DNA from: Ectocarpus siliculosus
Lineage: Eukaryota; Sar; Phaeophyceae; Ectocarpales; Ectocarpaceae
Reading direction: 5' to 3'
NCBI GenBank assembly: GCA_000310025.1
Contig: FN648466.1
Span: 84,313-148,312, forward strand
DNA length: 64,000 nucleotides
This document shows positions 1 through 37,619 of this stretch, in pieces; positions within the stretch are counted from its first letter, which is position 1; every line of letters starts with the position of its first letter. Both the position numbers and the translations under genes were made by a program. The notes beneath the pieces were generated by a model. The model was not told the DNA's origin, ran no database searches, and saw only the letters and a list, made by a program, of their open reading frames with translations.

Positions 1-3000
1 ATTTTTTCGTACTTGTTGCGCGAGGTTGCCAATGCCCTCAGCTGAGTATGTTAACACGGGACAACCGTTTCGTTGTGTCAGTGAGATGCTTTAATTACAC
101 AACTCGAGAATAAATCGGATTCAAGAGGAATTTTGCACAGCAGGCATGGATTCCAACATGGTGAGTGTTCTTCGTTCTTCAAACAAATATACCACACCCA
201 TCTCAAGATGTTTCGTACGCCTCACCCAAACAAAACATTTCGGAAAATGCAGTGTACGCACTCAGTTTGGCGGTAGGCAATCCATCAGGGATACGCCGAA
301 CACAGGGCTGACTCTGTCCGCCACGGTCAAGCATCAACGATCAACGGATCAACAGCCGGTTGTTCGTTGTACGATCAACTGCACATCAATACGATCTGAT
401 GCTGGTGTCACTCACCCGACAGTTGGCCCTCCAGCTCGGTTTGTACCAGTTGCACGATGTCGCCAAGGCCCTCACCTGAGTATTTCAATATGCGACAACA
501 GTTTCGTTGTGTCAAGTGAGCGTCCTATTGTAGAACGAAACGATAAAAAACCAGAATCCACTGGAATATCACAAAAGCGGCAGACGTTCCATCATGGTGA
601 GTGGTTTTCGTTCATCAAACAAATTACCCGCCTCCATCGTATGAAGCCCCGTACGCATGGCCGGCATGCACGTTTGACGATTAGATAAGGGATTTGGTGT
701 AAGGCGGCAAGTCAGGCACCAGGGTTGTGCCAAACGTAGAGCTGTCCACCTCTGTTAAGCACTACAACGATCAAGAGCGCCGCCTGCCGCTGCCCGGTAA
801 AACCAACAGTTAGCCCGTTCGATCTGATGCAAATATCGCTTACCCGAGAGGTGGCCCTCCAGTCGAGCTCGCAACCATCGAAGCACGTCGTCAAGGTCAT
901 CAACTGCGTAATTCAACACGGGAGGATATTCGTTGTGAGGGTAACCTGCTTCGATTGTAGAACTCGAGGACCAAAATCAGACTCAAGAGGAAGTTCACCC
1001 AAGAAGGCATGATCCGATCATGCTGCTTTCCATCCAACAAACAAGATATCAATCGCATCCGACGGAGCATAGGGCCTGACCGACATATTATAGATACGGC
1101 GAAAGAAGGCACAGCCAGGTGGTGAGCAAGGTGCCAGGGGCCACCCAAATATGCAGGCGAGTCTGTCCAACACTGGCGAACATTTACGATCATCAGCGGG
1201 CTGTTGTTGCCTCACGCAAACGAACTGCATGTCAGAATTGTTTGATGCAATTGTCGCTCACCCGATAGTTGGCCGACCAGTTTGGAGTGTACCAGTTCCA
1301 CCAGGACGTCGGCAAGGTCTCCGGCTGATTTTTTCAGCGTGAGAGAAAAAATCGTTGAGTAAGTGGGCTTCTTCGACTCCATAACTTCGGAATCTACCGG
1401 ATTTGACAACAAACTCACTGAAGCCATAGATTCCAGCATGGTGAGTGCTTTTCGTTCATCAAACAAATAAACCACACCCATCCTCCGATGCTCCGTAGGC
1501 CTGACTGACAAAAACATGTCGACAAAAAGACAACTCACTAAGCTCGACGGTGCCAGGTTCTGTCTGCGAGTGTCAAGCATCAACGGACCAACGGATCAAC
1601 AGCAGGTAGTTCGCTGCCTGATCAAGTCAACTGCTCGTCCATACGGTCTGATGCTGGTGTCACTCACCCGAGAGTTGGCCCTCCAAACATGTCCGTACTC
1701 GTTGCACGAGGTCGCCAAGGCCTGCAGCTGAGTATTTCAATATGGTACAGCAGTTTCGTTGTGTCTTGTGAGATGCTTTGACTGAACAACTCGAGCATAA
1801 ACCAGATTACAGGAGGAAATTCGTACGGGAGGCATACATTCCAACATGGGTGAGTGTTTTTCGTCCATCAAACAAATATACCGTTCCCATCCTACGGTGC
1901 TCCCTCCCGGTGTTTGTCATCGGGGTTGGGTTGTCCAAGCTTGGCAACGACATATAGCAACGACATCACGACATTGTAAAACAAGCCGATCGGTTCGTGG
2001 GCTCGACAAAGGATACCCACTTTCTTCCCGTTGTATTGTTTGCGGCAACATAATGGTGGTCGAGTAGATTATGTTGTGCGAGGTCGACAACGCTCACTCG
2101 CGCAAAGGGGATGATCGCCCCACGTGGTGTTAAAATGGTGAAGCACCCTCGAGGCAGTTACACAGTGCTAACAACCGTCTCTGGGAGTGTAAGCACCAGA
2201 AAATATATTAAGTTATTCGCACATGCCATCCGTACGCAAGGAAGCAAGCACAAGATGCCGAACGCCCAATACAGGATGCAGCGCACCCTCCATGGTGTTT
2301 GCCGAATACCTCACGGTCCTTCGCGCTTGGTAATGTGACAGCCTCGTCCTGTGAGAACCCGGCCTGCTAAGTCCCGGCTTTGCAGGGATGCGAGGTAAAT
2401 TGTCAAACGACTACGGCCTGCACGACTATGAGTACACCCCCCCCATCCTACGATGCTCCGTACGCCTCACCCAAACAAAACATTTCGGAAAAAACATTAT
2501 ACGCACTCAGTTCGGCGGTAGGCAATGCATCAGGGATACGCCAAACAGGGTCCCGAGTCTGCTCGCCACGGTCAAGCATCAACGATCAACGGATCAAGAG
2601 CTGGCTGTTCGCTGCACGATCAAGTCACATGCATGTCCATACGATCTGACGGTGGTGTCACTCACCCGACAGTTGGCCCTCCAGCTCGGTTCGTACCAGT
2701 TGCACGACGTCGCCAAGGCCCTCACCTGAGTATGTCAATGCGGTACAGCAGTTTCGTTGAGTCAAGTGAGCGCTCCTATTATTGTAGAACGAAAACGACA
2801 AAACAGATTTCACTGGAATATCACAGAAGCGGCAGGCGTTCCATCATGGTGAGTGGTTTTCGTTCATCAAACAAATTACCCGCCTCCATCGTACGGAGCC
2901 CCGTACTCATGGCCGACATGTACGTTTGACGATTGGATAAATGATTCGGTGTAAGGCGGCAAGTCAGGCACCAAGGTTGTGCCAAACGTAGAGCTGTCCA

Positions 3001-6000
3001 CCACTGCTAAGCACTACAACGATCAAGAGCGCCGGCTGCTGCTGCCGGTAAAACCAACAGTTAACCATTCGATCTGATGCAAATATCGCTTACCCGAGAG
3101 GTGGCCCTCCAGTCGAGCTCGTAACCATTGCAGCGCGTTGTCAAGGTCATCAGCTGCGTATGTATTTCAACACGGGAGGATATTCGTTGTGAGGGTAACC
3201 TGCTTCGATTGTAGAACTCGAAGACCAAAACCAGATTCAAGAGGAAGTTCACCCAAGAAGGCATGATCCGATCACGCTGCTTTCCATTCATCAAACAAGA
3301 GATCAATCGCATCCGACGGAGCCCAGCGCCTGACCGACATATTATAGATACGGCGAAAGAAGGCACAGTCAGGTGGCGAGCAGGGTACTAGGGAGCACCC
3401 AAATATGCAGGCGAGTCTGTCCAACACTGGCGAACATTTACAATCAACAGCGGACTGTCATTGTCTGACACAACCAACTCCATTGATGCAATTGTCACTC
3501 ACCCGATAGTTGGAACTCCATTTTGGAGTGTACCAGTTCCTCCAGACCGTCGGCACGGTCTGCATCTGGATATTTCAACATGTCAGAATAGTTTTGGGTG
3601 TGTGAGTGGCCATATTTGGCTGCAGAACTTGGGAAATACCAGATTGCAGAGGAAAAACACCGAGGAGGCAAAATTCCAATATTGTCAAGTGCTTTTCGTT
3701 TATCGAGTAAACCACACCCATCCTACGAAGACCCGCATGCCTGACCGTGACAAATCAGCGAGTCAGGCGAATAATACGCACTCAGTCCGGCGTCACCGAA
3801 TGCATCAGGGCCAACCCAAACACGGCGCCAAGTTTCTTCACGACTGTCAAGCATGAACGATAAACGGACCAACGGATCAACAGCCGGTAGTCCGCTGCCT
3901 GATCAACTCAACTGCACGTCCATACGGTCCGATGCTGGTGTCACTCACCCGAGAGGTGTCCCTCCAACTTGGTTCGTACCAGTAGCACGAGGTTGCCAAT
4001 GCCCTCAGCTGAATATTTTGTCACGGGACAACCGTTTCGTTGTGTCAGTGAGATGCCTTGATTGCATAACTCGAGTATGACTCGTATTTCAAGAGACATT
4101 TTGCACAGGAGGCGTAGATTCCAACATGGTGAGTGTTTTTCGTTCATCAAACAAATACACCACTCCCATCTCAAGATGCCCCGTACGCCTCACCCAAACA
4201 AAACATTTCGGAAAAAACAGTATACGCACTCAAAGTTCGGCGGTAGGCAATCCATCAGGGATACGCCGAACACAGGGCTGACTCTGTCCGCCATGGTCAA
4301 GCATCAACGATCAACAGATCAACAGCCGGTTGTTCGCTGCACCATCAAGTCAACTGCACGTCTATACGATCTGATGCTGGTGTCACTCACGCGACAGTCG
4401 ACCCTCCAGCTCGGTTCGTACCAGTTGCACGAGGTCGCCAAGGCCCTCAGCTGAGTATTTCAGTATGGGATAACAGTTTCGTTGTGTCAAGTGAGCGCTC
4501 ATATTATTGTAGAACGAAAAAGACAAAACAGATTTCACTGGAATATCACAGAAGCGGCAGACGTTCCATCATGGTGAGTGGTTTTCGTTCATCAAACAAA
4601 TTACCCGCCTCCATCGTGCGAAGCCCCGTACGCACGGCCGACATGTACGTTTGAGGACTAGATAAATGATTCGGTGTAAGGCGGCAAGCCAGGCACCAAG
4701 GTTGTGCCAAACGTAGAGCTGTCCACCACTGCTACGAGCTACAACGATCAAGAGCGCCGGCTGTTGCTGCCCGGTAAAACCAACAGTTAGTCCGTTCGGT
4801 CTGATGCAAATATCGCTTACCCGAGAGGTGGCCCTCCAGTCGAGCTCGTAACCATTGAAGAACGTCGTCAAGGTCATCAGCTGCGTAATTCAACACGGGA
4901 GGATAGTCGTTGTGAGGGTAACCGGCTTCGATTGTAGAACTCGAGGACCAAAACCAGATTCAAGAGGAAGTTCACCCAAGAAGGCATGATCCGATCACGC
5001 TGCTTTCCGTTCAACAAACAAGATATCAATCGCATCCCACGGAGCCAAGCGCCTGACCGACATATACATATGGCGAAAGAAGGCACAGCGAAGTGGTGAG
5101 CAAGGTACCAGGGGCCACCCGAATATGCAGGCGAGTCTGTCCAACACTGGCGAACATTTACAACCAACAGCGGTCTGCTAGGACCTTAGGCAAGGCAACG
5201 AACTGCATGTCAGAATAGTTTGATGCAATTGTCACTCACCCGATAGTTGGATCACCAGTTTGGAGCGTACCAGTTCCACGAGGCTGTCGGCACGGTCTTC
5301 AGCTGAGTATTTCAACATGGGACAATATTTCGTTCTGTAAATTTACTTCTTCGACTGTAGAACTTGGAAATAGAAGTACCGGATTTAACTTGTGCCAACT
5401 TAATGAAGGCCAACATTTTAGCATGGTGGGTGCTTTTCGATCCTCAAAAAGATATACTACACCCATCCTACGATGCTCGGTACGCCCGGCCGAAACAAAA
5501 CATTTCGGCAAAAGTAGTACGCACTCAGTTGGGCGTAACGGAATGCACCAGGGTTGCGCCAAATACGGCGCCAAGTTTGTCCACAACTCAAGCATCAACG
5601 ATCAACAGATCAACAGCCCGTTGTTCACCGCCTGATCAAGTCAACTGCATGTCCATACGGTCTGATATGCTGGTGTCACTCACCCGAGAGGTGGCCCTCC
5701 AAATTGGTTCGTACCAGTTGCACGAGGTCGCGAAGGCATTCAGCTGAGTATTTCAATATGGGACAATCGTTTCGTTGTGTCAGTGAGATGCCTTGATTAC
5801 ATAACTCGAGCATTGATTGGATTCCAAGACGAAATTCGCTGAGGAGGCGTAGATTCTAACATGGTGAGTGCCTTTCGTTCACAAAGCAAATATACCACTC
5901 CAATCCTACGATGCTCCGTACGCCTCACCCAAACAAAATATTTCGGAAAAAAACAGTATACGCACTCAGTTCGGCGGTAGGCAATCCATCAGGGATACGC

Positions 6001-9000
6001 CAAACAGGGCGCTGACTCTGTCCGCCACGGTCAAGCATCAACGATCAACGGATCAACAGCCGACTATTCGCTGCACCATCAAGTCAACTGCACGTCCGTA
6101 CGGTCTGACGCTGGTGTCACTCACCCGACAGTTGGCCCTCCAGCTCGGTTCGTACCAGTTGCAAGACGTCGCCAAGGCCCTCACCTGAGTATTTCAATAT
6201 GGGATGACAGCTTCGTTGTGTCAAGTGAGCGCTCATATTATTGTAGAACGAAAAGACAAAACATAATCCACTGGAATATGACAGAAGCGGCAGACGCTCC
6301 AACGTGGTGAGTGGTTTTCGTTCATCAAACAAATTACCCGCCTCCATCGTACGGAGCCCCGTACTCATGGCCGACATGTACGTTTGACAATTGGATAAAT
6401 GATTCGGTGTAAGGCGGCAAGTCAGGCACCAAGGTTGTGCCAAACGTAGAACTGTCCACTACTGCTAAGCACTACAACGATCAAGAGCGCCGGCTGTTGC
6501 TGCCCGGTAAAACCAACAGTTAGTCCGTTCGATCTGATGCACATATCGCTTACCCGAGAGGTGGCCCTCCAGTCGAGCTCGCAACCATTGCAGCACGTCG
6601 CCAAGGTCATCAGCTGCGTATTTCGTGTATCAACACAGGAGGATAGTCGTTGTGAGGGTAACCTGCTTCGACTGTAGAACTCGAGGACCAAAACCAGATT
6701 CAAGAGGAAGTTCACCCAAGAAGGCATGATCCGATCACGCTGCTTTCTGTTCAACAAACAAGATATCAATCGCATCCCACGGAGCCCAGCGCCTGCCCGC
6801 AATACACATATGGCGAAAGAAGGCACAGTCAGGTCGGGAGTAAGGTACCAGGGAACACCCAAATATGCAGGCGAGTCTGTCCAACATTGGCGAACATTTA
6901 CGATCAACAGCGGACTGTCGTTGTCTGAAACGACCAACTCCATCGATGGACTCGTCACTCACCCGGTAGTTGGATCACCATTTTAGAGGCAAACAGTTCC
7001 ATCAGGCCGTCGGCAAGGCCTCCAGCTGAGTATTTCAAAATGTCAGAAGAGTTTCGTTGTGTAAGTGGCCGTATTCGACTGCAGAACGTGGATATACCGG
7101 ATTCAAGAGGAAAAACACCGAGTAGGCAAAATTCCAACATGGCGAGTGCTCTTCGATCAGTAAACACACCCATCCTACGATGCTCGGTACGCCTGACCGA
7201 AACGAAACATTTCGGCAAAAAAGTACGCAATCAGCTTGGCGTTTAGGGAATTCATCAGGGTTACGCCAAATACGGCGCCAAGTTTGTCCGCGACGGTCAA
7301 GCATCAACGAACAATGGATCAACAGATCAACACCCGGTTGTTCTCTGCCTGATCAACTCAACTGCACGTCCATACGGTCCGATGCTGGTGTCACTCACCC
7401 GAGAGTTGGCCCTCCAAATTGATTCGAACTCGTACAGCGAGGTTCTCAAGGCCTTCAACTGAGTATTTCAAAAATGGGACAATCGTTTCGTTGTGTCAGT
7501 GAGATGCCTTCATTGCATAACTCGAGCATTGATTGGATTCCAAGACGAAATTCACACAGGAGGCATGGATTCCATCATGGTGAGTGTTTTCGTTCATCAA
7601 ACAAATACACCACTCCCATCTCAAGATGCTCCGTACGCCTCACCCAAACAAAACATTTCGGAAAAAACATTATACGCACTCAGTTCGGCGGTAGGCAATC
7701 CATCAGGGATACGCCAAACACGGCCCCAAGTCTATCCGCCACGGTCAAGCATCAACGATCAACGGATCAACAGCCGGCTGTTCGCTGCACGATCAAGTCA
7801 CATGCATGTCCATACGACCTGACGGTGGTGTCACTCACGCGACAGATGGCCCTCCAGCTCGGTTCGTACCAGTTGCACGACATCGCCAAGGCCTTCAGCT
7901 GAGTATTTCAACATGGGATAACAGTTTCGTTGTGTCAAGTGAGCACTCCTATTGTAGAACGAAAAAGACAAAACATAATCCACTGGAATATCACAAAAGC
8001 GGCAGACGTTCCATCATGGTGAGTGGTTTTAGTTCATCAAACAAATTACCCGCCTCCATCGTACGGAGCCCCGTACTCATGGCCGACATGTACGTTTGAC
8101 GATTGGATAAATGATTCGGTGTAAGGCGGCAAGCCAGGCACCAGGGTTGTGCCAAACATAGAGCTGTCCACTACTGCTAAGCACTACAACGATCAAGAGC
8201 GCCGGCTGTTGCTGCCCGGTAAAACCAACAGTTGGTCCGTTCGATCTGATGCAAATATCGCTTACCCGAGAGGTGGCCCTCCAGCTGAGCTCGTAACCAT
8301 TGCAGCACGTCGTCAAGGTCATCAGCTGCGTAATTCAACACGGGAGGATAGTCGTTGTGAGGGTAACCTGCTTCGATTGTAGAACTCGATGACCAAAACC
8401 AGATTCAAGAGGAAGTTCACCCAAGAAGGCATGATCCGATCACGCTGCTTTCCGTTCAACAAACAAGATATCAATCGCATCCCACGGAGCCCAGCGCCTG
8501 ACCGACATATTATAGATACGGCGAAAGAAGGCACAGTCAGGTGGCGAGCAAGGTACTAGGGAGCACCCCAATATGCAGGCGAGTCTGTCCAACATTGGCG
8601 AACATTTACGATCAACAGCGGTCTGCTGGGACCTTCTGCAAGGAACCTCATGTCCGAATAGTTTGCTGCAATTGTCACTCACCCGATAGTTGGCCTACCA
8701 TGTTGGAGTGTACCAGTTCCACCAGGCCGTAGGCAAGGCCTCCAGCTGAGTATTTCAGCATGAGAACATAATTTTGCTGTGTAAATGAGCTTCTTCGACT
8801 GTGGAACTTGGGAAATACCGGATTTGACAACAAACTCACTGAAGGCATCCATTCCAACATGGTTACTTTTCATTTATCAAACAAATAAACAACTCCCATT
8901 GTAAGATGCTCCGTACGTCTGGCCGTGACAAAACATTTCGGCAAAAACAGTACGCACTCACTTCGGTTTCAGGGAATGCATCAGGGTTACGCCAAATGCG

Positions 9001-9294
9001 GCACCGAGTCTGTCTACGACGGTCAAGCATCAACGATCAACAGATAAACAACTCGACAACCGGTTGTTCGCTGCATGATCAAGTCAACTGAACGTCCATA
9101 TACCGTCTGATGCTGGTGTCACTCACCCGAAAGTTGGCGCTCCAACTGGACTCGTACTCGTTGCACGAGGTTGCCAAGGTCTTCAGCTGAGTATTTCAAT
9201 ATGAGACAACATTTCGTTGTGTCAGTGAGATGCTTTGATTGCAGAACTTGAGCATTGATCAGATTCCAAGAGGAAATTCGCACAGGAGGCATAC
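1..9294 (-). repeat. Higher-order repeat block: four monomer types in a ~1.73-kb period
   Basis: Four distinguishable monomers follow one another in fixed order. The type with a GTAAGC donor (plus strand gcttacccgag) recurs at 838, 3087, 4815, 6548 and 8257. Intervals are about 1.71-1.73 kb once the ~0.55-kb insertion at 1.9-2.45 kb is removed from the first. Copies of the same type in different periods are clearly more alike than neighbouring monomers within a period. This is the usual signature of recent unequal exchange acting on a multi-monomer unit. Confidence 0.75.
1897..2450 (+). repeat. Interspersed ~0.5-kb repeat, copy 1, inserted in the array
   Basis: Starts with the motif ggtgtttgtcatcggggttg and ends at a C-run after tatgagtacac. 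It matches, with many substitutions, the segments at 10.18-10.53 kb, 25.84-26.51 kb and 26.51-27.04 kb. The array monomer resumes directly after it. No coding capacity was recognised. Confidence 0.7.
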
Positions 9295-10127
9295 ACCGTA
9301 GACGACACAATATAACACACCCACATAAGAAACTTTACCCCCCACAGAATGAGACACCCCGGAGATAATTTTGATTTTGGACGTTTCTGACGAATCATCG
9401 ATTTAGCCCCCGGGCTACATAAGATATTACACCCCTTGAGTTCGCGCCTCATACATTCACGGGGCCCCTCCGTCTATCACCGGGGTGATATAGGATCTCA
9501 GGATCTGCCGCTTGGGCATCGCACGCACACACAACATCTGCGTGCGGGGAAACACCCCGAGACCTCCAACAACATGAACGTGCAGGGAGGCAGAATGTCG
9601 CCGCAAGTACCTCCGCTTCTTCCACAACTGTTTCGACTGCAGCAGTACAAGCACCACAGATCGCGTCGTTTTTTCAGCGCCGGTGAGCACATTTCTTCTA
9701 CGCAAGCGGCTCCTGCCACGGCTCGTCCTCCTGATGCTGCTGATCTAACAGCAGCAGTAGCTGGCACAGCAACAAGCGCCAACATGACAGCCACCGCATC
9801 GCCTCACCAGCAGCAGCCACACCCCTTCAAGTGTGCGGCAGCAGCAGCGGTTCAACTCTACAACCAGTGTCATCACACCCCCATTTTATCACACCCCCAC
9901 AATATCACACCCCCACAATATCACACCCCCAAAGGCACCCTGTGGGTGTTGGGACGTGCTACAACACCCCCTGGTTTATCGCACACCCTTAGGGGCCCCT
10001 GCGAGCTGCACTTTATCACCCGGGCTACATAATATACCCACCCCCCACAGGATACCACACCCGGTGATAACATTTTTAAAGCCCAAAATATAATCACCGC
10101 CGTGTGTTATCTTGTGTCGTCTACGGT
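9295..10127. mobile_element. 833-bp element with ~27-bp terminal inverted repeats
   Basis: The left end begins ACCGTAGACGACACAA and the right end is its inverse, TTGTGTCGTCTACGGT; similarity continues for about 27 bp. Removing the element restores the array sequence catac/attccaac seen in other monomers, for example near 1.84 kb, so the ends are well defined. No target-site duplication is evident. The interior has GC-rich and CAC-rich short repeats (cacccccacaatat three times) and no recognisable transposase, so it is likely a non-autonomous DNA element. Confidence 0.65.
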
Positions 10128-10179
10128 ATTCCAACCTGGTGAGTGTTTTTCGTTCATCGTACAAATAAACCCACCCCAT

Positions 10180-10525
10180 ACGCGTAAAGGGGATAATCGC
10201 ACCACGTTGTGTTAATATGGTAAAGCACCCTCGAGGCAGTTACACAATGCGTATAACCGTCTCTGGAAGTGAAAGCCCCAGAAAATAAATTAAGTCATAC
10301 GCAGCTGTCATCCGTACGCAAGGAAGTAAGCACAAGATGCCGAACACCCTTAGCAGGATGCAGCTAACCCTTCATGCGGCTCGCCGAATACCTCACGGTG
10401 CTTCGCGCTTGGTGATGTGAGAGCCTGGTCCGGTGAGAACCCGGCGTGCTCCGTCTCGGCTTTGTAGGGATGCGAGGTCAATGGTCTAACGACTACGTCA
10501 TGCACGACTATGAGTACACCCCCCC
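10180..10525 (+). repeat. Interspersed ~0.5-kb repeat, copy 2 (5'-truncated)
   Basis: Matches the 3' two thirds of the family, from ggggataatcgcaccacg to tatgagtacacccccc. It lacks the 5' part with the ~60-bp subrepeats found at 25.84 kb. It lies just right of the 833-bp TIR element, and array sequence follows it. Confidence 0.65.
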
Positions 10526-10869
10526 ATCCTACGATGCCCCGAACGATGTCCCGTACGCCCGACCGAAACAAAATATTTCGGCAAAATTGTACGCACTCAG
10601 CTTGGCGGTAGGGGAGGTATCAGGGTTACGCCAAATACGGTACCCTGGTGTCACTCACCCGAGAGTTGGCCCTGCAGATTGGTTCGTACCAGTTGCACGA
10701 GGTCGCCTAGACCTTCAGCTGTGTGTGTTAATAAGGGACAACAGTTTCGTTGTGTCAAGTGACCTGCTTCGATTGCAGAACCCGGGGATAATCGGACTCA
10801 AGATGCAATTCACTTCGGGGGCATACATTCCAACACAGCAATGCGTGCGTTTCGTCCATCAAGCGAATA

Positions 10870-11215
10870 AACCATCCCTGTCCATCGCGCTTTGGTCTAT
10901 TAGTTCGTATTCCCGTAAACCTTCTGGCGGCCAGGTCATGGGTCCGAATCTCGGCGTGAGCGAGCTTTTTTCTTGCAACGTGACATTTTTCTCTCAGTCT
11001 CGTGTTTGGCAGGGGAGTATCGCTACGTCGTGAGTACACATTGAGGGAAGATAGCCTGCTGAACTTTTCTCGCGTTAAAAATCGAAGCCAAGCACCGCAG
11101 GAGGGTGGGTGGGGGCCTCAAGGGAGGGCCTCGGGGAGAAGAACTTTTCTGTGTGACCACGGATCAGAGCTCTGGCGAGGCGTCCCTGCGGCCGATGGTT
11201 AAATCGGCAAAGAAA
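10870..11215. repeat. Insertion in the array; part resembles a tRNA-derived SINE tail
   Basis: The array pattern is broken here. A segment around 10,915-10,965 contains ggtccgaatctc, similar to a Pol III B box, in a context of the kind commonly seen in tRNA-derived SINEs. The following ~200 bp (purine-rich, with gggtgggtgggggcctc) match nothing else in the window. No gene is supported. Confidence 0.3.
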
Positions 11216-12899
11216 AACTATCAACTGGCTCGAAACTGCCTGGCCGAAGTATACATTTAACGATTAGATAAGGGATTGGGCGCAAGGCGGATAACAAGGC
11301 ACCAGGGTTGTGCCAAACATGGCGCCGAGTGTGTCCACCACTGCTGCTAAGCACTGCAACGATCAGCAGAGACGTCCATATCGCATGAGGCAAATATCAC
11401 TTACCCGAGAGGCGACCCTCCAGTTGATTTCGAGTCTGTACCCATTGAAGCACATCGCAGAGGTCATCAGCTGCGAAATTCGAAATGGGAGAGAGTTTCG
11501 TTGTGAGGGTGGCCTGCTTCATTGTAGAATTCGACAGCAGACTTTGTAAAGTGGACTTAATCAAGGAGAAAGAGTTTCCAACAAGGCGCAATGTCTTCAC
11601 TGATTGGCTAACCCAACCCCATCCTTCGTAACGATTCCTTATAGCCGGAACAAAAAATATTGGAAAAAGATAAGGCACTCTGTCAAATGCGGACAGTTAA
11701 TGTACCAGGGTTAAGCCAAACACTTGGGCAAAGTTTGTCCCCTACACCTAAGCGTTGACCACCAACACCCAACTGATGCTGCCTTAAAAATCAACTGCAC
11801 GTCCAAATTTACTACAAGTCTTCAGGTACAGGTGTACTCACCCGAGAGTTGACCCTCCAAACGAGTTTGTGCCAGCTGCACCAGGTCTTCGAATTTTGAT
11901 TTTTCATCTGCGTATTTCAATATGGGAGAACAATTTCGTTGTGAGGGTCACATGCTGCGAAAAAAAACTCGAGAATGAATCGAATTTAAACGAAAAAAAT
12001 TTACTCAGGACGCAAAGAACCGATCATCCGATCATGCTGCTTCCCGTTCGACAAGTAAGACACCAATCCGTACTTCGCAGCCCTGAACGCCTGGCCGAAA
12101 CGAACGTTCAAAGTGAAAGAGAGGGCGCTCGGAATAAGGCGGAAAGTCAGGCACCAACGTCAAAACACTATTGGCGCCCGATCCCTCCACTACAGCTGAA
12201 CAACAACGATCAACAGCCGGTTGTTTTTGCGTGATAAAAACCAACTGCACGTCCGTATCATTTGATGTAGGTATCACTCACCCCAGTCATTGTCCTCCGG
12301 CGGTGGATTTTGTACCGAGTGCGCCAGCAACTCAAGGTCATCAGCTGGTATTTCAACATGGGACAGCATTTTCGTGGCGATGAGCTGCTTCGATTGTAGA
12401 GCTCGACGACAAAACGGATTCAACTGGAAACTCATCGATGATTCCAACATGGCGTTTTCGTTCGTGAACCAAGACACAAATTGCATCCAACGTTGTTCTG
12501 CACGCTTCACCGAAATGTGAACCATCGGACGAAAGATCAGGCACTCGCTTCAAGATTTAAGGCGAGTCCCTCTGCTACAGTTTTTAGCAATCACGATCAA
12601 CATTGTTGATTGTTGACTTTTCGATGTCTGATCAAACAAACTGCGTGTCCGTACCATTTGATGCAGGTGTCACTCACCCGAATGTTGGCCCACCAGTGTG
12701 GTTTGTACCAGTCGCATCAGGTCATCAAGCCCTTCATCAGCTGAGCATTTCAACACCGGAGGACATTTTCGTGCAGGGCGAGTGGGCTGCTTTGACTGCA
12801 AAGAACTCGACGACAAAGCGGATTTAGCTGGAAAATCAACGATGAGGCAGACACCCGAACATGGTGTTCCCTCGTTCATCCAGTATTAACCGACCCCAT

Positions 12900-13440
12900 C
12901 CTGCGGACAGAGGAACCTAAGGAAAGAACCAAGGATAAGGAGGGTCTAGAAGTGTACGGAATGTTGAACGGGGAATAGGGTTCAAGGAGTACCGACATGG
13001 ACCAATGGATGCAGGGACAAAGCGAAGGTCAAATTCAGGACCGGGGACATTGACCTTCGAGAACGCAGACGGAGATTTCGGAAGGTACAGTAGACAATGA
13101 AGACGACAAGTTCATATGCGATTGCAACGCCGAGTGAGAAGACCGGGTTCATGTACAAGAAGGAGAGGGAAGTGTACATGACTGAGCTAGGAAAAATAGA
13201 AGGAAGATAGAGGGAGAGGGAGATGTTTGAGGCTAGCGAGGAGAAGACAATAGTCGCACTGGGGCATAGGAAGTGTGTTGAAAAGGCGGGAAGTGATATC
13301 GATAGGATAGATAGACTAGGGAAGACAATTTTGAGCCACCTTTGACAAAATAGGAAGGAATGATTGGCCATCGGTGATCGGTCCTGTGGGAACAATGCTC
13401 CCTTCTCTCGAGGACGCGTGGTCAATGGTCTAACTCCTAA
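12900..13440 (+). pseudogene. Decayed 3' end of a reverse-transcriptase-type (LINE-like) polyprotein
   Basis: Read across at least three frames, the plus strand gives pieces typical of retroelement polyprotein tails. They include a C-D-C-N-A-E segment followed by DRVH, then a KKEREVYM-like charged stretch, then TIVALGHRKCVEKAG, DRIDRLGKTIL and finally GDRSCGNNAPSSRGRVVN. Frameshifts and stops separate the pieces. It interrupts the monomer array between the units at 12.68 and 13.65 kb. Similarity is recalled from such elements in other genomes, not computed. Confidence 0.4.
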
Positions 13441-14700
13441 GGAATGCAAAACACAAGAGTACACTCCTCCCATCGTACGGACGGTAACCCTGACGTCGCC
13501 TGACCAAATTGCGGTAAGTCAGGCACCATGAAAACGCCAAACATGGGGCCGAGCACGCCCGCCACCGCAGAGAAGGAAGAACAAACGGCCGGCTGCTGTC
13601 TGCTGAAAAACTCAGCTGCGACTTCGAACCGTCTAAACCAGCTGTGACTCACCCCAGACGTGGTCTTCCAGTTGAGTCCGTAGCAGTTCCACCAGGTTCC
13701 CCAGGTCATCGGCTGCGTATATCAACATGAAGGAGTTCAAACCGGATTCAATTGGAACTCGTCGAGAGGGCAGCGATCCGATCATGCTTTTCGTTCATCA
13801 CATTGATGAAAACTATCCCATCCTGTTCGCCCTAAATGCCTGATCGAAACCAAAACCTTTCGAAGGAAAGAGTAGGCACTCGAAATATGGCGGCAAGTGA
13901 GGCATCATGGTTGCGCTGAACATGCGGCCGAGTCTTTACATTTTTTCATGTGAAGCTAACGATCACACAACAGCTGGCTACTGATGCCTGATGAAACCAA
14001 TTGCACGTTCGCACCGTTTGATGCAGGTGTCACTCACCGGACAATCGGGGCTCCACTTGAGTTCGAACCAGCTGCAACAGGTTGCCGAGGTGTTTATCAG
14101 CTGGGCATTTCAACACATGGGGAAAGCATTTCCGTTGTGTGAGTGAGATTCTTCGGTTGTAGAACTTGACGACACAAGACGGGATGAAATGGGATTCAAC
14201 GGAGGAGGTAGGGATCCGAACGTGGTGAGTTCGTGCATGAAACAAGCAAACGACCCCATCCTTTGCGTAGCCCTGTACGCCTGACCGAAATCAAACGTGC
14301 TGCAAAGCAGGCATATGAAATATGGCGGCAAGCAAGGCACCCGGGTTGTACCCATTAGAGGACCGGCTGCGCACCACTGCTACAGCAAGCAATATTCAAT
14401 TATCAACAGCCGGTTGTTGGTGCGTGACAAAATCAGCTGCACGCCCGTACCATGTTATGCGCAATTCACATACCCGAGAGTTGGCCTCCGAGTTTGGCTC
14501 GTTCCTGTCGAAGCAAACCGGCAAGAATCTTGAGAAGGGTGTTCAACACGTCAATCCGGTTTTCTCGATCTTCATCACCTGCGTATATTCAACATGGAAA
14601 AATGTTTCGGTCTTCTTCGTTGTAGGAGTGAGCTCCTCGATTGTAACGCTCGACATAGACCGGATCGCACTGGATGAGCGTGTTGGGCATTTCTTCTACC

Positions 14701-15028: not shown

Positions 15029-15619
15029 CCGCGGATTCGCTGGAAGGAGGTGGCCGAGGAAAAAACTTGTCCCCATGCGTGCCCACGAGAGCGACAACCG
15101 CGCCAGGGACGCGTTCGTGTAGAATAACGAGCCACCGGTAAATGGCTCCGCGAGGGTCTGGGATCCCGGCCGACTTCTCGTCCCTTCCGAGCTCGAAGAG
15201 GTCCACCACCAAGAGGAACAAGGCACCTTCGGTCAGAAAGATTTGGTGGGAAGCGTGGTAGTCTGATTGCCCTGAAAAGTCCCACAAGCTCACTGCCAGA
15301 GGCAGGTTTTTATTTGGTTTCCATTCGGAGAGCTCGACGCCAATTGTACGCTTGTCGGCTGGATCGCCGCCGGTGAAATGGCGCACGATGGTAGTCTTGC
15401 CGGCTTCCGCAAGTCCCACCAATACCATCTTGAGCTTGCTCGATGTCCCTTCACCAAAGCGAGCGATGCCATCCCACCATCTCCCAGCACTCACGAGACC
15501 CCGTGCTAGAAACGCTCGTGGCGGCCGTACCCAAGGGTTGCCGTTCACGCTCACACCCACTTTGCGATTGTCGTCTTGAACCGCCAACGCCCATTTGGCC
15601 GTCAAGTCCATAGGTAGCA
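15029..15619 (-). CDS. Roc GTPase exon of the ROCO gene
   Basis: A 591-bp exon with acceptor gaccgcag/TG and donor GCGG/GTGAGT, phase 1 at both ends, encoding about 197 residues. The N-terminal part (MDLTAKWALAV, then VSVNGNPW) is the usual linker after LRRs. G1 is GLAEAGKTT (P-loop GxxxxGKT), G3 is DFSGQ, and the G4 region is THGDK, where Ras-like proteins have N/TKxD. FLLVVDLFEL fits the strand before the switch region. The nucleotide-binding residues look intact, so GTP binding is plausible. In family members a COR dimerisation domain follows; here the next 300 bp hold none and the monomer array begins. Confidence 0.85.
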
Positions 15620-18600
15620 CTGCGGTCGACGAATAAAAACGGTCAACAGCACCGGAAGCCGACCTGGGAATCAGCCCAAGATACTTTATTGTGACCTCAG
15701 ACGACCCCCCGAAAAATGTCCTCCTGACGGGACATTACCGTATCACACAACTCAGGTATAGTACCGGCGGACTGTATCGTCACCGCATTTATCGAAAACG
15801 GACAACTCTGTGATTTCGCGATCGTGCGCGATATCCGCTTACAGTTGTGCACAGCCAAGACTCGACTCACGCAGCACGATTTTGGTCAACTTTGGAGGAA
15901 TGTTGGCCGACTCTTCAACGTGTGATACTCACCACTCAGTTCATTGTTGGTCAAGTCTACGTCAAAAAGTCTCTCCAGACGAACCAGAGCTGACGGCACG
16001 GTTCCTGGCCGTTGTGAAAACGCGCAAGAACGAGCAAAAACGACATGTTTCAGCTCAGTACGGGGTGCTCGCCATTCACGGCAATGGTATCGCATGATGC
16101 ATATGGAGGACGACTACTCTCGTTCTCCACACGAGAAAAGTTTGCCTCTGATTCTTCGATCGTCTGGTGCAACAGCTGCAGTACGCCAAGCCACCGACCA
16201 CTTAGCCCATTGCTGCCCAATCTCAGCACTCCAAGGTCTCGAAGGTTGGAGAGGTCCTGCGGGATGTTTCCTGCGGAACGGAGTTAAAAAAACAGACAAA
16301 AAGGTACTTAGCACGGTATTAGGATAGAAAGTTCGCAGGGGGTGGAAAACGCAAATCATGAAGAGCATAGGCCGCCTTAGAAACACACAGAAGCAGTTTT
16401 CGATTCGGCGTTAACCTGCAGCACGTCTCATAAATCACAGGTACTCCGTACCGTTGCTTTCACGGTGGCACAAGGTAGCATAATCGAGAGCACAACCTTC
16501 CTCACGGTGACGCTTGAAAGTATGTCTCAGTTCTCTTTGCTTCGTCCTGGTAACATATTCGGCCAAAACAACGCACCTGTAAGTTGGTTGTTGCTGAGGT
16601 CGATCTTCCACAGCACTCTGGAGTACAGTTCGTCGCCACAGCTCCCTCCTATGCAAGAACAAAGGTCGCAAACGGAGTGTTGTAAGGGTAGATGAACCGG
16701 CCATGGCGACTCAACTTCGATCGGCTATTGTAACCCCAAAAATATTTCCGAGAGATCTAACCAAGAGTGGACAGAGTGCGTTCTTTATCTCACTAAATAA
16801 ATCCTGGTCTAAGTTGGAAGCGACGCGCGGCAAAGCTCGTTGTTAGTAAACTAGATCGACTTCATAAGTCGCGAGGGAAGGGATTGCTGTTTTCGCGATA
16901 AAAATATCTCAGGCAGGAACCGCAGGAGGGGGTCCAACCCCCCCCTCCTATGTGACCTCGGTTGGGTAGTCTAGCTAGTAGAAGTGGAGGATGGGGGCCA
17001 GAGGGGCAGACGACAGAGTCCAATGATGGGAGGAAAAAAAAAGAGCGTCAATGAGTGAGCAGCAAAATGTTGTACGGTACGTACAATCCGAGCGAGAGGT
17101 CGTTCCCTCGGTCAGCAACGCACCGGGCGGCGAGGTCAGCAGAAACAAAACCGTCCAAAACACGGAAACAAACCCACCCGCAACACTGAAATGCAGCGTA
17201 AATCTTCTCGCTTGTAAGATGTGACCGCCTCCACCACCCGCGATGAAAGACAGCCGGTAACGGTCGCCGGCGCATGCCAACCGTCTCAGGGGGTCCTTCG
17301 GATCAATCTCCATCACTTCATGTGTCCATTTATGCTCGGCTGGATCTGGCATAAGCTGCCGGTGCTCCTTCGGTTCTTGGGTTGAACACTGTTGGTCCGT
17401 GGATCCCGGGTCCAAGCTCAGGAATAGCGTCCCTTTCCGATTGCCCCATCCTTGATCTCTCCACAAGAAGGACACGTACCGGAGCTCGTGTAAAGGTTCC
17501 AATGGCTCCGAACTCCAGTGGTCCCGCTCGTCCTCGGGATCGCTGCCGATCCCTTCGGCGTACAGATCAGGTACGAAGGTTTGATGGCCACTTCTGTTCC
17601 CGGCGTCTAGGGAAACAAACGCGAGTGTGGGGCGGGAAAACATTCGGGCGGCTCTCGCTTTGGCTCTGACGTTATTCGAGCAAATTGAAAAAAGCATCAA
17701 CGGCGTCGACCACGTCCTTCTGCCATACCAGTTCGAATTTTCGTTTGCCGTAAGCCCCAACACTTGCCGGGCAACACTTGCCGGTTTTTGCTGCCACCTT
17801 CTGTCCCGAAATTTCGAACGTCCCTTTCCGACTTCCTCTGACGACGCCACCCAATTGCTGACTGAAAGCTCTTTTCAATGTGATCATATTTTGGGGGGAG
17901 AGGCATTTGAAAAGGTCTCTTAAATTATGGGCTGAAGCTTTCATCAGCACACCCTGCTTGCTGTTTCTCTCTTGACGTTATCTCAACGCCGATCCTTGAT
18001 TGTCTCTTTGTCGTTATCTTCCCGTCGTCCACAATCTCAAATATACCCAAACTCCTGTTATTGTCTTTGAAAGAATACAGTCAACATCAAAGAAGGAACT
18101 ACGCCATGAGACAGGACTCCCGATTCCCCCCTGGGTTTCCTCACGGAGAACGGTCACTTTAAAACCGGCCGAGTACAAAATTGCCTTTATCATGGCCTCT
18201 CCTCAGAAACCGGCTGCTGCACGTGAGGTATTGGGTGCTGCCCAGCTGTTTGCTGCAGTACATGGTAAGGTTCCGGTGGGTTAGAGCGGCAAGCGTGCCT
18301 TGCTTCTTCACTCCGCCCTCCTCTACTTTGTTTTCTGTCGCTGTCTGTCTCTCTTGTTTCTCGCCCTTCGTTCTTGTTTGAGCAAAATAACTGACTGTCT
18401 GACTGTGTCTTGGGGTCCCCCACCCACCCACAACCACCTGATGGTTCGTGGTCTCCAATATTTACAGTACGGTATGTAGTGGTCTACTACAGAACATGCG
18501 GTACGCGTCCATGAGTGCAACAGCAGAAGAGCTAGATACTGGTGGCCTTCTGACCTGATCATGCAGAGAGAGGCTATTGCCACCACAAGACGACTCTATG

Positions 18601-21600
18601 CCATGCCCATGACGGGGAACGCGTACGTTCTACGCCTGTGCTCATTTCCTCTCCCATCCGGCTATTTTGTTTCGGAGACGAAACCTATCCTGACAATCAT
18701 CTTCTGGGGTCCGCATTTATTTAGTCTCGGTTTCTTTTCGAGCGTGAGGAGATCGATGGTCTCCACCGTTCGGGTGTGATCGTGCGCATCAACGAGCATG
18801 ACTAGCGAGATTGTTGACAGCATGGAGTCCCTCGCCACAAAACGTGCATACGCATCGATGGGCGTTGTGAGAATGCCCTCTTCTTTCTCTTCGCTCAGCG
18901 CCGGTCGAAGACTGATGATGTTGTTCTTTTCGGGTGCGCGTGAGGTCGTCCCAATAACTTCGTCGTGCGGAAGGCAGAAAGCAGTGTATCCGGACCGCAT
19001 GTCAATTGCCGCGGTCGCTGCCCCTGGTCTTCTTGCTACAGTACATCGTTCGGTGGTGTCATTTCACTTACCTTTTTGCATGTCGGCCGCCCCGTCTACG
19101 CGGCTACACACGTCTACATCAAACGTTGACGTTGATATTCAAGCTGACTTTGTGCAACCGCCCGTCCGGCTGTAGCGTCTAATATTGCGATCCCAGGACA
19201 ATCTCCGTGCCCCTACTGCGCCGAGAACAACGCATTGCATACGTGCCAATGGAACTTGCTTCTTTGAACTGGAGTCACGGCGCCGGGCAGATTGTTTCTC
19301 AGTCTTCGCAAGTCTTCCAGGGGTTTGAAGACCACCCCATGTAAACGTCATTGACTTCAACTTTGGGGGCGGAATTCTCGCTGGTAAGTGTTTCGAATCA
19401 CCTTCTTCCTCTTGGCGGCGGGTCCCGCATCCACTTCGTCACGCAGATGCGCTCGAGGGATCGGTGGCACAAATAAATTTGCCTCCATGGTGGCCTTACA
19501 ACCTCTTCTCACGACTTTGACCCTACCTGGTATTAAGCCCACCAGTACATGATACTGTAGTATCCACGCGGACGTCGCTATGTGCGTATAAACCCAACGA
19601 TCGGGATATGAGCCCATCACGAGGACCACCAAAACCTACTCAACAACGGAGCCATTCAGCCTATCCGGTGAAGCCTGTCCCCAAACGACCGACGCAGTTC
19701 AGGTCCTGTCAGCCGATCGGAGAGAACTGCTTGAGGCCATTTTTCATGTGATTTCTGTGTTTTTCATCTCGTTTTTTTGTATATTGTCGTGTTCGAGAGT
19801 GTTCCCGTACGCAGTTGCGGCTTCCCGTAAAAAAAAAGGAAGGGTTCAAACAGACAACACCGACGAAACTCATCGAGTTGCACATCAATCTGAAGACACT
19901 TTTATCGCAGCCAGCCGCCGTCAAGGAAGTGGTGCAAAATTTTGTACTGTTTAATACCCTCGCTATGTAGGTAAGGTAGGACCATAGCAGTATAGTCTCT
20001 CTTCTTCGCGCGCACTATCTCTCTTCTGGTGCCATGGACTCACCGCCACACACAATTCGTCGTGTGACTCGCTTCACTCAGCATGGCGGCAAAAGCCGCA
20101 ACAACCCTTGTACTTCGTATTGCTTTTGTGCACGCCTCGTCAGCCAACGCAAGTCGCATATCAGTTGTCAGGATGGCACGACAACAGTGATCCAGGTGTC
20201 GCTCGGAGCCCTTGACGAGCGCGCTAAGATCAGTACCTCCTGCGCGATCGATGAGTTTGTCCGTCGACGCACTCGCGATCACGAAAGAAAATCAATCGGC
20301 TCATCTGATCGGAAATCATCTACCGCGTCTATTTTCGGTCAAGTTTACCCTCTCGTGACGGAAATAGAAAACTACTGATTGGAAAACGCCGACGTCCGAC
20401 CGCTAAAGCAACGGTTCCGGGCTCGAAATCGATAATACAGATTTTCGATCGCTGGTCTATCGCATAAGAAATGGCCTATTAGGGTTTTTTGCTTGAGCGT
20501 GCGAAAAAAAAATGCGAAAAAACAAAGGTCCAAAGTTGTTCTTCTGTTGGGGGCAGTCCCAACTGATGTCGAACACCCCTGTGTCCTCATCGAACGACTT
20601 TGATTTCCCTGATGGACAACAGTGCGTCCAACGAAACACCAAGTGTCGAAATAAACTAGCCTTGAGCGTGTAGCCTGTCGCAGACTAGTAGATTCGGCGG
20701 TTCTCACCCGTAAAGTTCTCCTCCACATTGGTCCTGATGCTTACTCCTAGCTGTCCAAGCCGATCGGGAATGTGACCTAGAGGGCGCGTGCGAGAATGTC
20801 GAGAGTTTCGTGTGTGCCAAATATTTCTCTAAAAGGGATTGTCACTGGCTACAACCCGATGAGCTGTACCACACATACTTTGGTATCTTTAAATACGATG
20901 TGTGGTGCCACAACCATGCATTTCAGCTACCTAGACAGATCAACAGCAGGACAGGATACCCGCACTGAGCCTGTAGCGCCGGGCGGACTCACCGCTAAGT
21001 TCGTTCGAACCGAGGTCAAGAACCTCAAGCGACTCCATCTCCCCCAGCTCCGGTGGAATAGAGCCTGTGAGAGGTTAAAGGGAAAGTAACAGGTGCCCCG
21101 GCCTCGTCTAAATCCCAATGTTTTGTATTGCAATCGAGTCGTCTGCCTGCGTTGCTGCGGTGGTACATGTAGCAACCACATTAATCAGACAGGGAAGAAT
21201 GGCTAGGCATACAGCACCTCCGCATGTTCATACATCACAAGCTGTTGTCTGTGGCAAAGACGAAAGAACCGAGTGAGCGATCGATCAACTTGGAGCAATG
21301 CAAGACAACATAGTGCTCGTTACAAGCTGGTTCAGGATGAATGCCCAACACTTATTGCACAAGATATTTTCACGCCGTTTATTACGGGTTCGACCATGAA
21401 ACTTTGCACACATACATGCTACAACGGTGAGATATCAGGGTAACCCGCCCCCCGCCCCCCGCCCCCCGGCTCAGTACTATTCAGTATGGCTAGACCATCA
21501 CTATTCAGTGAGCTCACTGAGGAGTCTAATAAATATACAGGTGGAAGTGATCTCCGGGGTGGACCCCTCGCCAGTCTCACAGTAGTTCTGTAAATGGTGC

Positions 21601-24600
21601 ATGTTTAGCATAAAAGTATGCTGGGATTCGAACCCGCGTCGGTATTTATTCTCAGTAATGCTTAGACTACTCAAATCAGCTGACTATTAGGCTACTTGTA
21701 CAGTCAATGTTGACTGTTCAAGTAGTCTAGCGGTACGTCAACCGGGACTCCGGATACTTGGCCACTAAAAAATTATTCGACCCGTTCTCATCGACTTTCG
21801 ATATGACCGGTATACATGTGAGTGAGCGAAATTTCATGGCTTCACTCGAAAAAACCGCGCGAGAAAACGGAGATATATGTACGGAGAGGTGCAATTTCAT
21901 CTGCCTATCCCCTACAAGTTGAAGCACAAAAGCTTTTACCCACAAATCTTTCTCATTTTTCAGAGTTGGGAAACGAAACTTTGTAACGAGTGCCTATTGG
22001 ACTGTCCTCCCGAAGGTAATATTTGAAAATTCAATATTCGGGAATATTGTACCGGCTTCTGGGGGCCTTACCCCGGAGACCGGTCAGTAATGGAAAAACT
22101 TGAAAACAATCTCACGAAATGTTTTGTCCAAGTTTGAGGGTGATCTGATGTTCCCTTCGATGTGTACAAGGGAAACAAATGTTAGGCTCTCCTGGTTTTT
22201 GCCTCATATTTTGCCCCATACACTTTGAGCAGAAATCTGACGACGCCATATCACCACATCATCATCACCCGCTTGGGCGTAACTCGTCCCCACCGTGTCC
22301 GTTTTCGATTCCGTTTCTTTCATGTGTCCCCTACCGTGTGAGAGGGGTTAACACTGTCTTGATTTTGATTTTTCATTCTGGAAAAGTTTTTAGGCCTCTG
22401 ATTGGCCAAAGCACATTTTCGCCTCAAGGTCACTGCAAATACCTGAACGGAAACCGGACCATGTCACCCTCTTCGACTTTCCATAGGGGTCACGAAGATA
22501 CATTGAAAAATTTGAATAAGGATTGCTCTCGATCTTCGTGGTGCACAAAATGTTGGGCGATCATCCTGAACCTGCTTGGAGCAGGTGGAGTTTCGGCTCA
22601 TTGGATGAATAAATCGCATGTCGTGACTGTCACACAAAAACAGTGGCACCAATGGTCTACGTGGATGACATCAAAATTATTTCTACGCTCATTGCGAGTT
22701 TTTTTGAACGGCGCGTATACGCCGCGAGCTCAAGGTACCCACAAGTCACAACTGAAAAATAATCACCAATGCTGTTCACCTCACCTTTTGACGTTCTCGT
22801 TTCCAAAGCTGACCAAAGTAGTTGGGGTTGTGCCCCCCCGGGCTTTGCTTAACACCCAACAAGGGCATGAACAACAATAATAGAGTAAACTGGCAGTAAA
22901 ATAGGGCACCCAACCATCTGGCACCACGCGACCTCCCTGGGGCTGTGGCCTACTTTTGCTGTCAAGGCTTCGATGCAAATAAATGCAATAGCATCATTTG
23001 TTCCCAAAGGCGATACTGCGTCCTCTCCTCAAAAGGTGAGCTGTGCGCTTCACTAGACCCCGAGCAAGCAGAGAAGCAACAGTATTCTGCTCCAATTGTC
23101 TGAACATTACAGGATGCCTTGTTTAGTTTGATGGAGCAGACCGACTCACCGAGCAAACCGACTCACCGGTCAGGGTGTTGTCGCTGAGAATAAGAGTCTT
23201 CAACAGCTTGAGCTTCCCCAGAATAGCCGGAATATCGCCTGCGCAAACCCATTGAGGTGGTCATACATTCCATATACCCCCCCAAAAAAACAGATATGAC
23301 GCGATTAGTGGTTCAGGTTGGGTTGGTAAAATAAAACAAAAAACTTACCATGCGCGTGTCTTTCGAATCTGCCAGTACCCCACCGCAAAAACAGAGGCTC
23401 GAGTTGGGGGAGTAGAGCGAAAATAGAAGCAAACGCCAAGCAACGAATCAGCGACTAGACCCGACAGTACCAGGAGAGAGTAAATCGCTAGCGCGGGGGT
23501 TGTGAATTTACAGAGAGAAGAAAAGAAAGGATACAGACACGAGCGGGCACATCTAGTTCGGTGCATTCTCGGCACGCTCGCACCCGATACTTGGATTGTG
23601 CGTGCGCATGAGCTACCGCCCCCACGAGCGCATGGCTGTCCCTGTTTCGGAGCACGTCCCACCAAAATATGCATGCGAGAGGCCTCGGCGCAATCGACGA
23701 GTGAGGCTTGTTTCATGCAATTTTCCACGACGATCGACGGCTTCACGAGAAAGGTCTTTGAGGACACCGCGCCACGAGCTCGCATGCGTAGCTTCCCTTA
23801 GCTCAGAGAAATCGGCGAGGGTCAAGAAAACGGCGTCACTAAAACCAGCCTCACATTTATCAAGTGAAATTTTCCAATTGCCTAACAGAAAAACTTCAAG
23901 GGCACCCAGGTGGAACACATGGTGCGGAAGAAATGGAGGCATGGATTCTAGAAGGCAGGGGGAATGTCTTGTCAGTTCCCCGCCAAATTCATTTTTCTCG
24001 TTGGTTGCAGGTCCCATTCTGCCGGAGCTGGGAAAACCCGTAGCATTGCGAATCCTCGTGCTCCAGAGCAACCAAATCAGGTGTGAGTCTTTTCGTCCAA
24101 GAGACATTTTATTTGAGCTCTCTTTGAACAAATATTCGCTGGTGGAGTAGGTGTTCTGGAAGGGATTGGCGCAAAATGTTCCGAGAAGCCGAGAGAATAC
24201 TTTTAACAACTTCTCGTCGAATTCGTTTTTCTTTTTTGGCTGCCGCCCATCAAAATTCACAACACTAAGGATCCTTTTCCTGGAGAAAACCAGTGGAGCG
24301 GTGAGTCACAAAGAACGCGATACTGGTATTCTGAGCTCGAAACGCGCGCGCAAAACCAATTTGACAATCGGAATTTTGGTTGTACAGGTTGCCCGTGTTC
24401 CAGGAGCAGGCTGGAAGGCGGAAAATAGATTTGTTGAATAGCTTTACCAGTACAGCAACATCGTGCGCACGCCGTGCTGGTACTGCGTCGACTTTACATA
24501 CAACGGATATTTAGGCGTCGACCGCGTGCAGAACGAGGGCACGTACCAGGAAGACAACGACGTTGTGGCATCTTGTACAACATGCAAGTCCATGGAAGCA

Positions 24601-37601: not shown

Positions 37602-37619
37602 CCGAGGTAGGCCCCCCCG

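Follow-up and report, generated by a model that had tools for sequence, protein, structure and literature searches.

The window analysed here, 64,000 nucleotides of the Ectocarpus siliculosus genome (C461:84313–148312, C461 being the contig that carries it), contains part of a ROCO gene (leucine-rich repeats, LRR, followed by Roc and COR) in which 42 predicted exon cassettes, all on the minus strand, occupy a single phase-1 intron position. The array is flanked on one side by an exon encoding motifs G1–G4 of the Roc GTPase domain and on the other by a predicted exon for the rest of Roc together with COR-A. Judged against neutral controls, the cassettes are very probably genuine exons, and selection seems to have kept all 42 splice-ready and readable. 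The gene is a candidate immune receptor whose GTP-binding switch domain carries the 42 small exons, an arrangement which suggests that the alga can make many versions of the receptor, alternative splicing of the cassettes being a possibility. Window positions equal C461 positions minus 84312; 20 kb to the left of the window were added to the analysis, the array stretch contains no N, and genome searches covered 189 Mb in 492 contigs. EsV-1-7 repeats are numerous in this genome, all 150 of the 150 matches scored lying over the cut-off compared with 0 of 14 control genomes, which accords with a brown alga.

The upstream neighbour of the array, the Roc exon (15029–15619, minus strand), matches the Pfam family Roc PF08477 above its cut-off (E = 5.4e-15), as well as bacterial Roco and LRRK2 chains in the PDB. 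It aligns to the Roc domain of LRRK2 as far as THxD, the THGD of this exon corresponding to THLD of LRRK2, and stops 13 residues past that motif in phase 1, ending in VGTHGDKFFPRPPPSSESA before a GTGAGT donor. At the opposite flank, behind a 2727-bp intron that separates it from the last cassette (42), the G5/COR exon (C461:75150–75898, or L001:838–1586) starts in phase 1 after a CAG and encodes 250 residues, on the same strand as the Roc exon and in matching phase. Its residues 56–228 match the exon behind Roc of a paralogue on contig C483 (E = 6.6e-32); a part of it also matches LRRK2, as a second stretch, weakly and without significance, and the G5 assignment was made by eye. Since a predicted COR exon lies beyond the array on the same strand, the cassettes would be internal to the gene, not a bank beside a ROCO gene lacking COR as the initial annotation had proposed. 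An open stretch beyond the G5/COR exon appears COR-B-like by eye and has no Pfam match.

The C483 paralogue has a cassette-free, predicted phase-1 intron 16 residues past its G4 motif, at nearly the same place (limits set by eye), for which reason the array probably fills a pre-existing G4–G5 intron of one ROCO paralogue. The cassette model gave no match up to E 10 in this paralogue (L003) and nothing significant in the loci L003–L008 (best E = 0.16). In two DNA searches of the genome for further copies of the array, only C461 appeared among the best matches scored, and with a 22-residue query all 20 of the best candidates scored likewise lay on C461. Roc matches on contigs C20 and C459 (L007 and L008) contain in-frame stops and may be pseudogenes or matches extending into introns.

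An nhmmer search with a nucleotide profile built from the exon block recovered the 42 cassettes, all with E < 1e-23, the six further matches listed having E of 1.5 or worse. The array runs from C461:98890 to C461:78626, reaching 5.7 kb past the left edge of the window, with 28 cassettes wholly inside the window, one (cassette 29) cut by its left edge and 13 outside. Every cassette is preceded by a CAG acceptor, the CA of which falls in the same two alignment columns in all 42 rows, and is followed by a GT donor: GTGAGT in 32, GTAAGC in 6, GTAAGT in 2, and GTATGT and GTGAGC in 1 each. All lengths are divisible by 3 (60 bp in 26 cassettes, 63 bp in 11, 66 bp in 3, and 54 and 105 bp in 1 each), and the reading frame is open, with phase 1 at both ends, in 42 of 42, the joined cassettes giving 870 codons without a stop. 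A first pass accepted either form of [CT]AG provided that the length was a multiple of 3, and the final limits are the CAG at the lengths picked thereafter; the alignment-based disruption, dinucleotide and core counts given below are independent of the chosen length list. Ser is the last residue before the split codon in 34 of the 42 cassettes, preceded by Leu in 31, whereas the split codon itself is set by the next exon and in joined cassettes is mostly Ala (27 of 42 start with CT). The 42 cassettes encode 41 distinct peptides. Cassettes 12 (7839–7898) and 20 (4391–4450) end in C, not G, before the donor, so that their split codon would encode Leu or Pro when joined to the following cassette and Arg when joined to the COR exon, rather than Ala or Gly.

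Phase-compatible cassettes with splice sites had been proposed in the initial annotation, and this proposal is borne out, with several of its particulars in need of amendment. Its count of about 29 cassettes holds for the window but not for the array; its block length of 60–63 bp does not cover all of the cassettes; and the (L)SG ending is correct as to Ser and Leu-Ser, the Gly being a split codon that usually becomes Ala on joining. Roc exon and cassette 1 are 450 bp apart, a distance formerly put at ~330 bp.

The in-window part of the array occupies positions 1–14578 and begins with cassette 1 (14474–14578), the longest at 105 bp and the one with the GTATGT donor. Cassettes 2 to 8 follow at 14038–14100, 13653–13712, 12678–12740, 12282–12344, 11842–11907, 11405–11470 and 10659–10718, cassette 5 having the lowest identity to cassette 1 among the 40 others compared. 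From cassette 9 to cassette 34, four types, labelled A–D for this analysis, recur in strict C-D-A-B order, each type forming one clade of the intron tree. In the window, type C comprises cassettes 9 (9127–9186, opening the period-4 zone), 13 (7399–7458), 17 (5684–5743), 21 (3949–4008), 25 (1668–1727) and 29 (1–41 in the window; C461:84353–84294 in full); type D comprises cassettes 10 (8683–8745), 14 (6963–7025), 18 (5240–5302), 22 (3503–3565) and 26 (1262–1324); type A, cassettes 11 (8266–8325), 15 (6554–6613), 19 (4821–4880), 23 (3094–3153) and 27 (844–903); and type B, cassettes 12 and 20 (positions above), 16 (6125–6184), 24 (2666–2725) and 28 (416–475). Cassettes 30 to 42, outside the window and likewise on the minus strand, lie at C461:83910–83848, 83500–83441, 83074–83015, 82621–82562, 82178–82116, 81779–81720, 81333–81274, 80944–80885, 80239–80177, 79815–79762, 79453–79388, 79082–79023 and 78685–78626.

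The C-D-A-B period measures ~1.69–1.74 kb, or 2.24–2.28 kb where an insertion lengthens the block, and five such blocks are 85–88% identical; cassettes 1–8 and 35–42 are more divergent and stand outside this order. Similar, ordered blocks in the middle and divergent copies at the ends are the pattern expected of block duplication within an old array: its central part would have been duplicated four cassettes at a time, so that the oldest copies now stand at the two ends. The five introns longer than 400 bp between cassettes (I03, I07, I08, I24 and I37) each represent a single intron split by at least one insertion, with no sign of a decayed cassette in any of the five. By eye, CGGTGTTTG.CATCGGGGTTGGG occurs both in the insertion between cassettes 24 and 25 (1728–2665) and in the 76-bp tandem repeat of positions 25837–25978, an overlap that suggests a mobile element.

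The introns of the repeats themselves served as controls for exon character, overlapping 60-column windows of their alignment being scored over the 42 copies on both strands and in the best frame. Stops or frameshifts disrupt none of the 42 exons, compared with at least 25 of 42 copies in the upstream intron windows (46 tests) and at least 18 of 42 in the downstream windows (42 tests), and the exon read backwards is disrupted in 7 of 42. When the exon consensus was evolved neutrally along the intron tree, at three rate scales with 500 runs each, stops arose in a mean of 15.1 to 19.8 of 42 cassettes depending on the rate scale, with a run minimum of 2, against 0 of 42 observed. Only the donor GT and the acceptor CA are invariant among 280 well-filled intron dinucleotide positions. 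Hydrophobic positions of the cassettes are hydrophobic in 94.9% of cases, a value of 77–85% being obtained in simulation and the observed one reached by 0, 0 and 1 of 500 runs at the three rate scales. Conservation exceeds the neutral expectation for splice sites, reading frame and hydrophobic core, and residue identity is nearly free.

An AlphaFold model of cassette 1, for which all cassettes but number 29, which crosses the window edge, were aligned (41 of 42), is a single helix with a predicted local distance difference test score (pLDDT) of 91.8. We infer from this model that each cassette would encode one α-helical module of 18–22 residues (35 in cassette 1). The fold of the G5/COR exon was dropped as evidence, its model being too poor (mean pLDDT 40.8, helix at residues 2–39).

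The reading favoured here, which we hold to be just on the probable side, is that the cassettes are real exons spliced serially, either all together or in varying subsets, giving a variable helical insert between G4 and G5. Spliced in series in the manner of brown-algal LRR exons, they would together form an extra helical segment of the GTPase, variable in length and composition and up to ~870 residues long under full inclusion, which might supply a variable binding surface or tune the coupling of the LRR sensor to the Roc-COR switch. Being 1-1 symmetric throughout, the cassettes could be combined in any number with the frame intact. This mode is favoured because no copy among the 42 is defective, because docking/selector pairing did not emerge from a limited search, and because brown-algal LRR exons are serial and spliced in varying combinations (as described in the available text of PMC11378527).

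Several observations weigh against this serial reading. An insert of ~870 residues inside a GTPase domain, as full inclusion would produce, is unusual; exon use is predicted from genomic sequence; and the nearest paralogue, that on C483, has at this site an intron of 449 bp without a cassette. Short peptides are often modelled as helices, and the helical moment of the cassettes, taken at 100 degrees, fails to reach significance (271 of 2000 column shuffles lie at or above it). The ratio of non-synonymous to synonymous substitution rates (dN/dS) over all 42 cassettes is 0.746, compared with a neutral value of 0.73 ± 0.13 (83 of 150 simulations at or below the observed one); no reduction of dN/dS below neutral was found for the 42 cassettes by this simulation, which gives the same value, and the ratio was rejected as a sign of amino-acid constraint. 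Amino-acid identity is therefore not measurably constrained, and polar positions are not clearly kept either, 5, 36 and 184 of 500 neutral runs at the three rate scales reaching the observed value. Variation at codon positions 1, 2 and 3 differs little (0.352, 0.295 and 0.382); the check on codon positions and dN/dS proposed in the initial annotation thus gave a neutral outcome, conservation beyond neutral appearing instead in frame, splice sites and hydrophobic core. Acceptor tracts have a lower pyrimidine content in the cassettes than in 16 LRR exons (0.56 and 0.65; p = 0.0009, the cassettes not being independent of one another), which hints at weak or regulated splicing. Finally, the G5/COR exon matches Pfam COR-A at E = 0.085, under the cut-off; the same difficulty with COR is reported in the accessible part of Teng et al. 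(2024, PMC11378527).

The main rival, a Dscam-like choice in which each transcript would receive a single cassette out of 42 (or some small, constant number of them) between Roc and COR, so that 41 versions of a helix are swapped, is rather unlikely. It would be structurally modest, adding a single 20-residue helix at G4–G5, a place that resembles the Rho insert region (PMC9687936, in part); with 42 cassettes the array is nearly as large as the Dscam exon 6 cluster of 48 variable exons (PMC6071210, in part), and the 41 distinct peptides and weak acceptors of the cassettes fit such a choice. The array also has the Dscam-type trait of tandem homologous in-frame exons between flanking exons, the constancy of the flanks being assumed. 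Docking/selector pairing was sought between 156 windows of the two flanking introns and 16 of the 41 cassette introns, and none of the 12 strongest windows, those for which shuffles were made, paired better than its shuffles (best z −1.4). The palindrome-like CAACAGCCGGCTGTTG present in many introns was considered as a hairpin and rejected, a consensus fold of 16 cassette-intron starts having given no pair, and this lack of a consensus fold also speaks against exclusive choice. Moreover, double inclusion would not be punished by a frameshift, the exons being symmetric and multiples of 3, and dead exons would be expected among redundant alternatives, whereas 0 of 42 are dead. In a wider form, a hypervariable GTPase in which one or a few of the 42 helices are picked per transcript and set between G4 and G5, diversifying downstream coupling and not ligand binding, such a choice is possible, if doubtful.

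The cassettes might instead have been copied from the beginning of Roc helix α4 itself, the array having arisen by tandem duplication of a native Roc exon. Inspection by eye shows that, after G4, the ROCO genes on contigs C11 and C5 have an exon start of (D)VED or (D)VEE, like the (A)ED of the cassettes, and that this stretch sits behind a CAG in a frame fitting phase 1, with a would-be donor GTCGGT. The likeness is one seen by eye, however, and the G5/COR exon of the present gene has an N-terminal stretch of its own, the low-confidence helix at residues 2–39, which is possibly α4; this origin is improbable.

That the array is a non-functional tandem repeat, its short open block due to chance and its cassettes unused, would agree with the neutral dN/dS, the weakly kept polar positions, the expansion in blocks and the genomic basis of the exon calls. 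The neutral controls already make it very unlikely: none of the 42 copies is disrupted, compared with at least 18 of 42 in the control windows, there are no stops where 15–20 cassettes with stops would be expected, the splice dinucleotides are invariant and the hydrophobic core is kept.

The LRR part of the gene precedes Roc, with a 72-bp phase-1 exon at 15934–16005 (minus strand, as are the following) and a weaker LRR-like stretch at 16200–16271 (E = 0.0048); LRR exons farther off, at 20994–21065 and 23168–23239, perhaps belong to the same gene, their linkage being putative. Two LRR stretches of the gene match Pfam LRR_8 (1.6e-4) and LRR_1 (0.0028), each under its cut-off. Also upstream of the Roc exon, an open stretch at 17100–17640 (minus strand) with WRDQGWGNRKGTLFLSL followed by GGGGGH has no Pfam match at E ≤ 0.1 and could be an N-terminal part of the ROCO gene or a separate gene.

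The cassettes had been called LRR-like in the initial annotation. As comparators, 16 LRR exons of 72 bp and phase 1 were found by motif in this gene, including that at 15934–16005, and in its paralogues; their pattern is GxIPxxLGxLxxLxxLxLxxNxLS. Aligned to these by hhalign, the 26 cassettes of 20 residues scored 6.6, no better than column shuffles (6.8 ± 1.8, 95 of 200 at or above; 110 of 200 when hydrophobic and polar columns were shuffled separately), and the positive control of one LRR half against the other scored 54.5. The 11 cassettes of 21 residues scored 4.3 and 7 old cassettes 7.8. Pfam scans covered 19 of the 42 cassettes: cassettes 1–12 joined gave no LRR match at E ≤ 1, and cassettes 36–42 joined gave nine matches at E ≤ 0.1, all weak, below cut-off and to models other than LRR. 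The LRR-like character is thus withdrawn, an LRR origin being rejected by the profile comparison with its controls, by Pfam and by the predicted fold of cassette 1. Descent from LRR exons, with the array supplying donor exons to be exchanged with those of the gene's LRR part, is extremely unlikely: the cassettes share phase and the ending of Leu-Ser plus split codon with the 72-bp exons, but, besides the profile, Pfam and all-helix results, they are 20–21 residues long compared with 24, lack the IP and Asn motifs and lie within the Roc region, outside the LRR region. Neither for such a donor bank nor for trans-splicing, also raised in the initial annotation, did any support appear, although no test was aimed at either.

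Elsewhere in the window, an open reading frame of 408 amino acids (36393–37619, minus strand) appears tyrosine recombinase-like by eye (HSLRIGGAT...) and has no Pfam match at E ≤ 0.1; it may be part of an element of Crypton or DIRS type, at a distance of ~21 kb from the Roc exon. Adjoining it at 38913–40235 is an array of units of ~57, 95 and 151 bp with the arms CAGCACGGG...CCCGTGCTG. Rfam returned no family over the window at gathering thresholds.

Zambounis et al. 2012 reportedly described, as relayed by Teng et al. 2024, brown-algal ROCO genes with single-repeat LRR exons. In the available text of Teng et al. (2024, PMC11378527), such genes have single-repeat, same-phase LRR exons used in alternative combinations of serial exons. 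The present gene resembles them in its family, in its runs of short, same-phase exons of one repeat each and in possessing 72-bp LRR exons, and differs in that their LRRs are N-terminal to Roc, whereas here non-LRR exons lie between G4 and G5. An array at that place is not described in the portion of the same paper that was available, which does report one Cladosiphon gene with a non-conserved sequence inserted in the ROC domain (PMC11378527); that insertion may be a relative of the present array. Insect Dscam1 likewise has large tandem arrays of similar exons between constant exons, 48 in exon 6, with a mutually exclusive choice linked to docking/selector pairing (available part of PMC6071210), for which a limited search gave no sign here. 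Unlike those of Dscam1, the cassettes are symmetric, ~60 bp long and known from the genome sequence only.

Heterotrimeric Gα proteins carry an all-helical domain inserted in the G domain which, unlike the cassettes, is a single fixed domain at a different site. The Rho insert region is helical. Its position in a small GTPase, as an additional segment between G4 and G5 (available part of PMC9687936), is like that of the array, but it is single, short and fixed, in contrast to the 42 exons here, and Roc belongs to another GTPase family. No exon array between Roc and COR was reported by title or abstract in the open-licence literature searched, in which neither a GTPase with hypervariable choice nor one with a variable insert was found described for ROCO proteins.

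The exon arrays reported for brown-algal immune-type receptors, in the accessible part of PMC11378527, are those of LRR and TPR exons, both in the sensor part of the receptor. The array described here would be a third kind, located inside the GTPase switch itself and not in the sensor. If the cassettes are chosen exclusively, it would constitute a Dscam-scale system outside animals, in a lineage whose divergence from plants and animals dates back about a billion years (PMC11378527, in part); if they are included serially, the product would be a GTPase with a variable helical insert. Either outcome would bear on how brown algae diversify their immune-type receptors.

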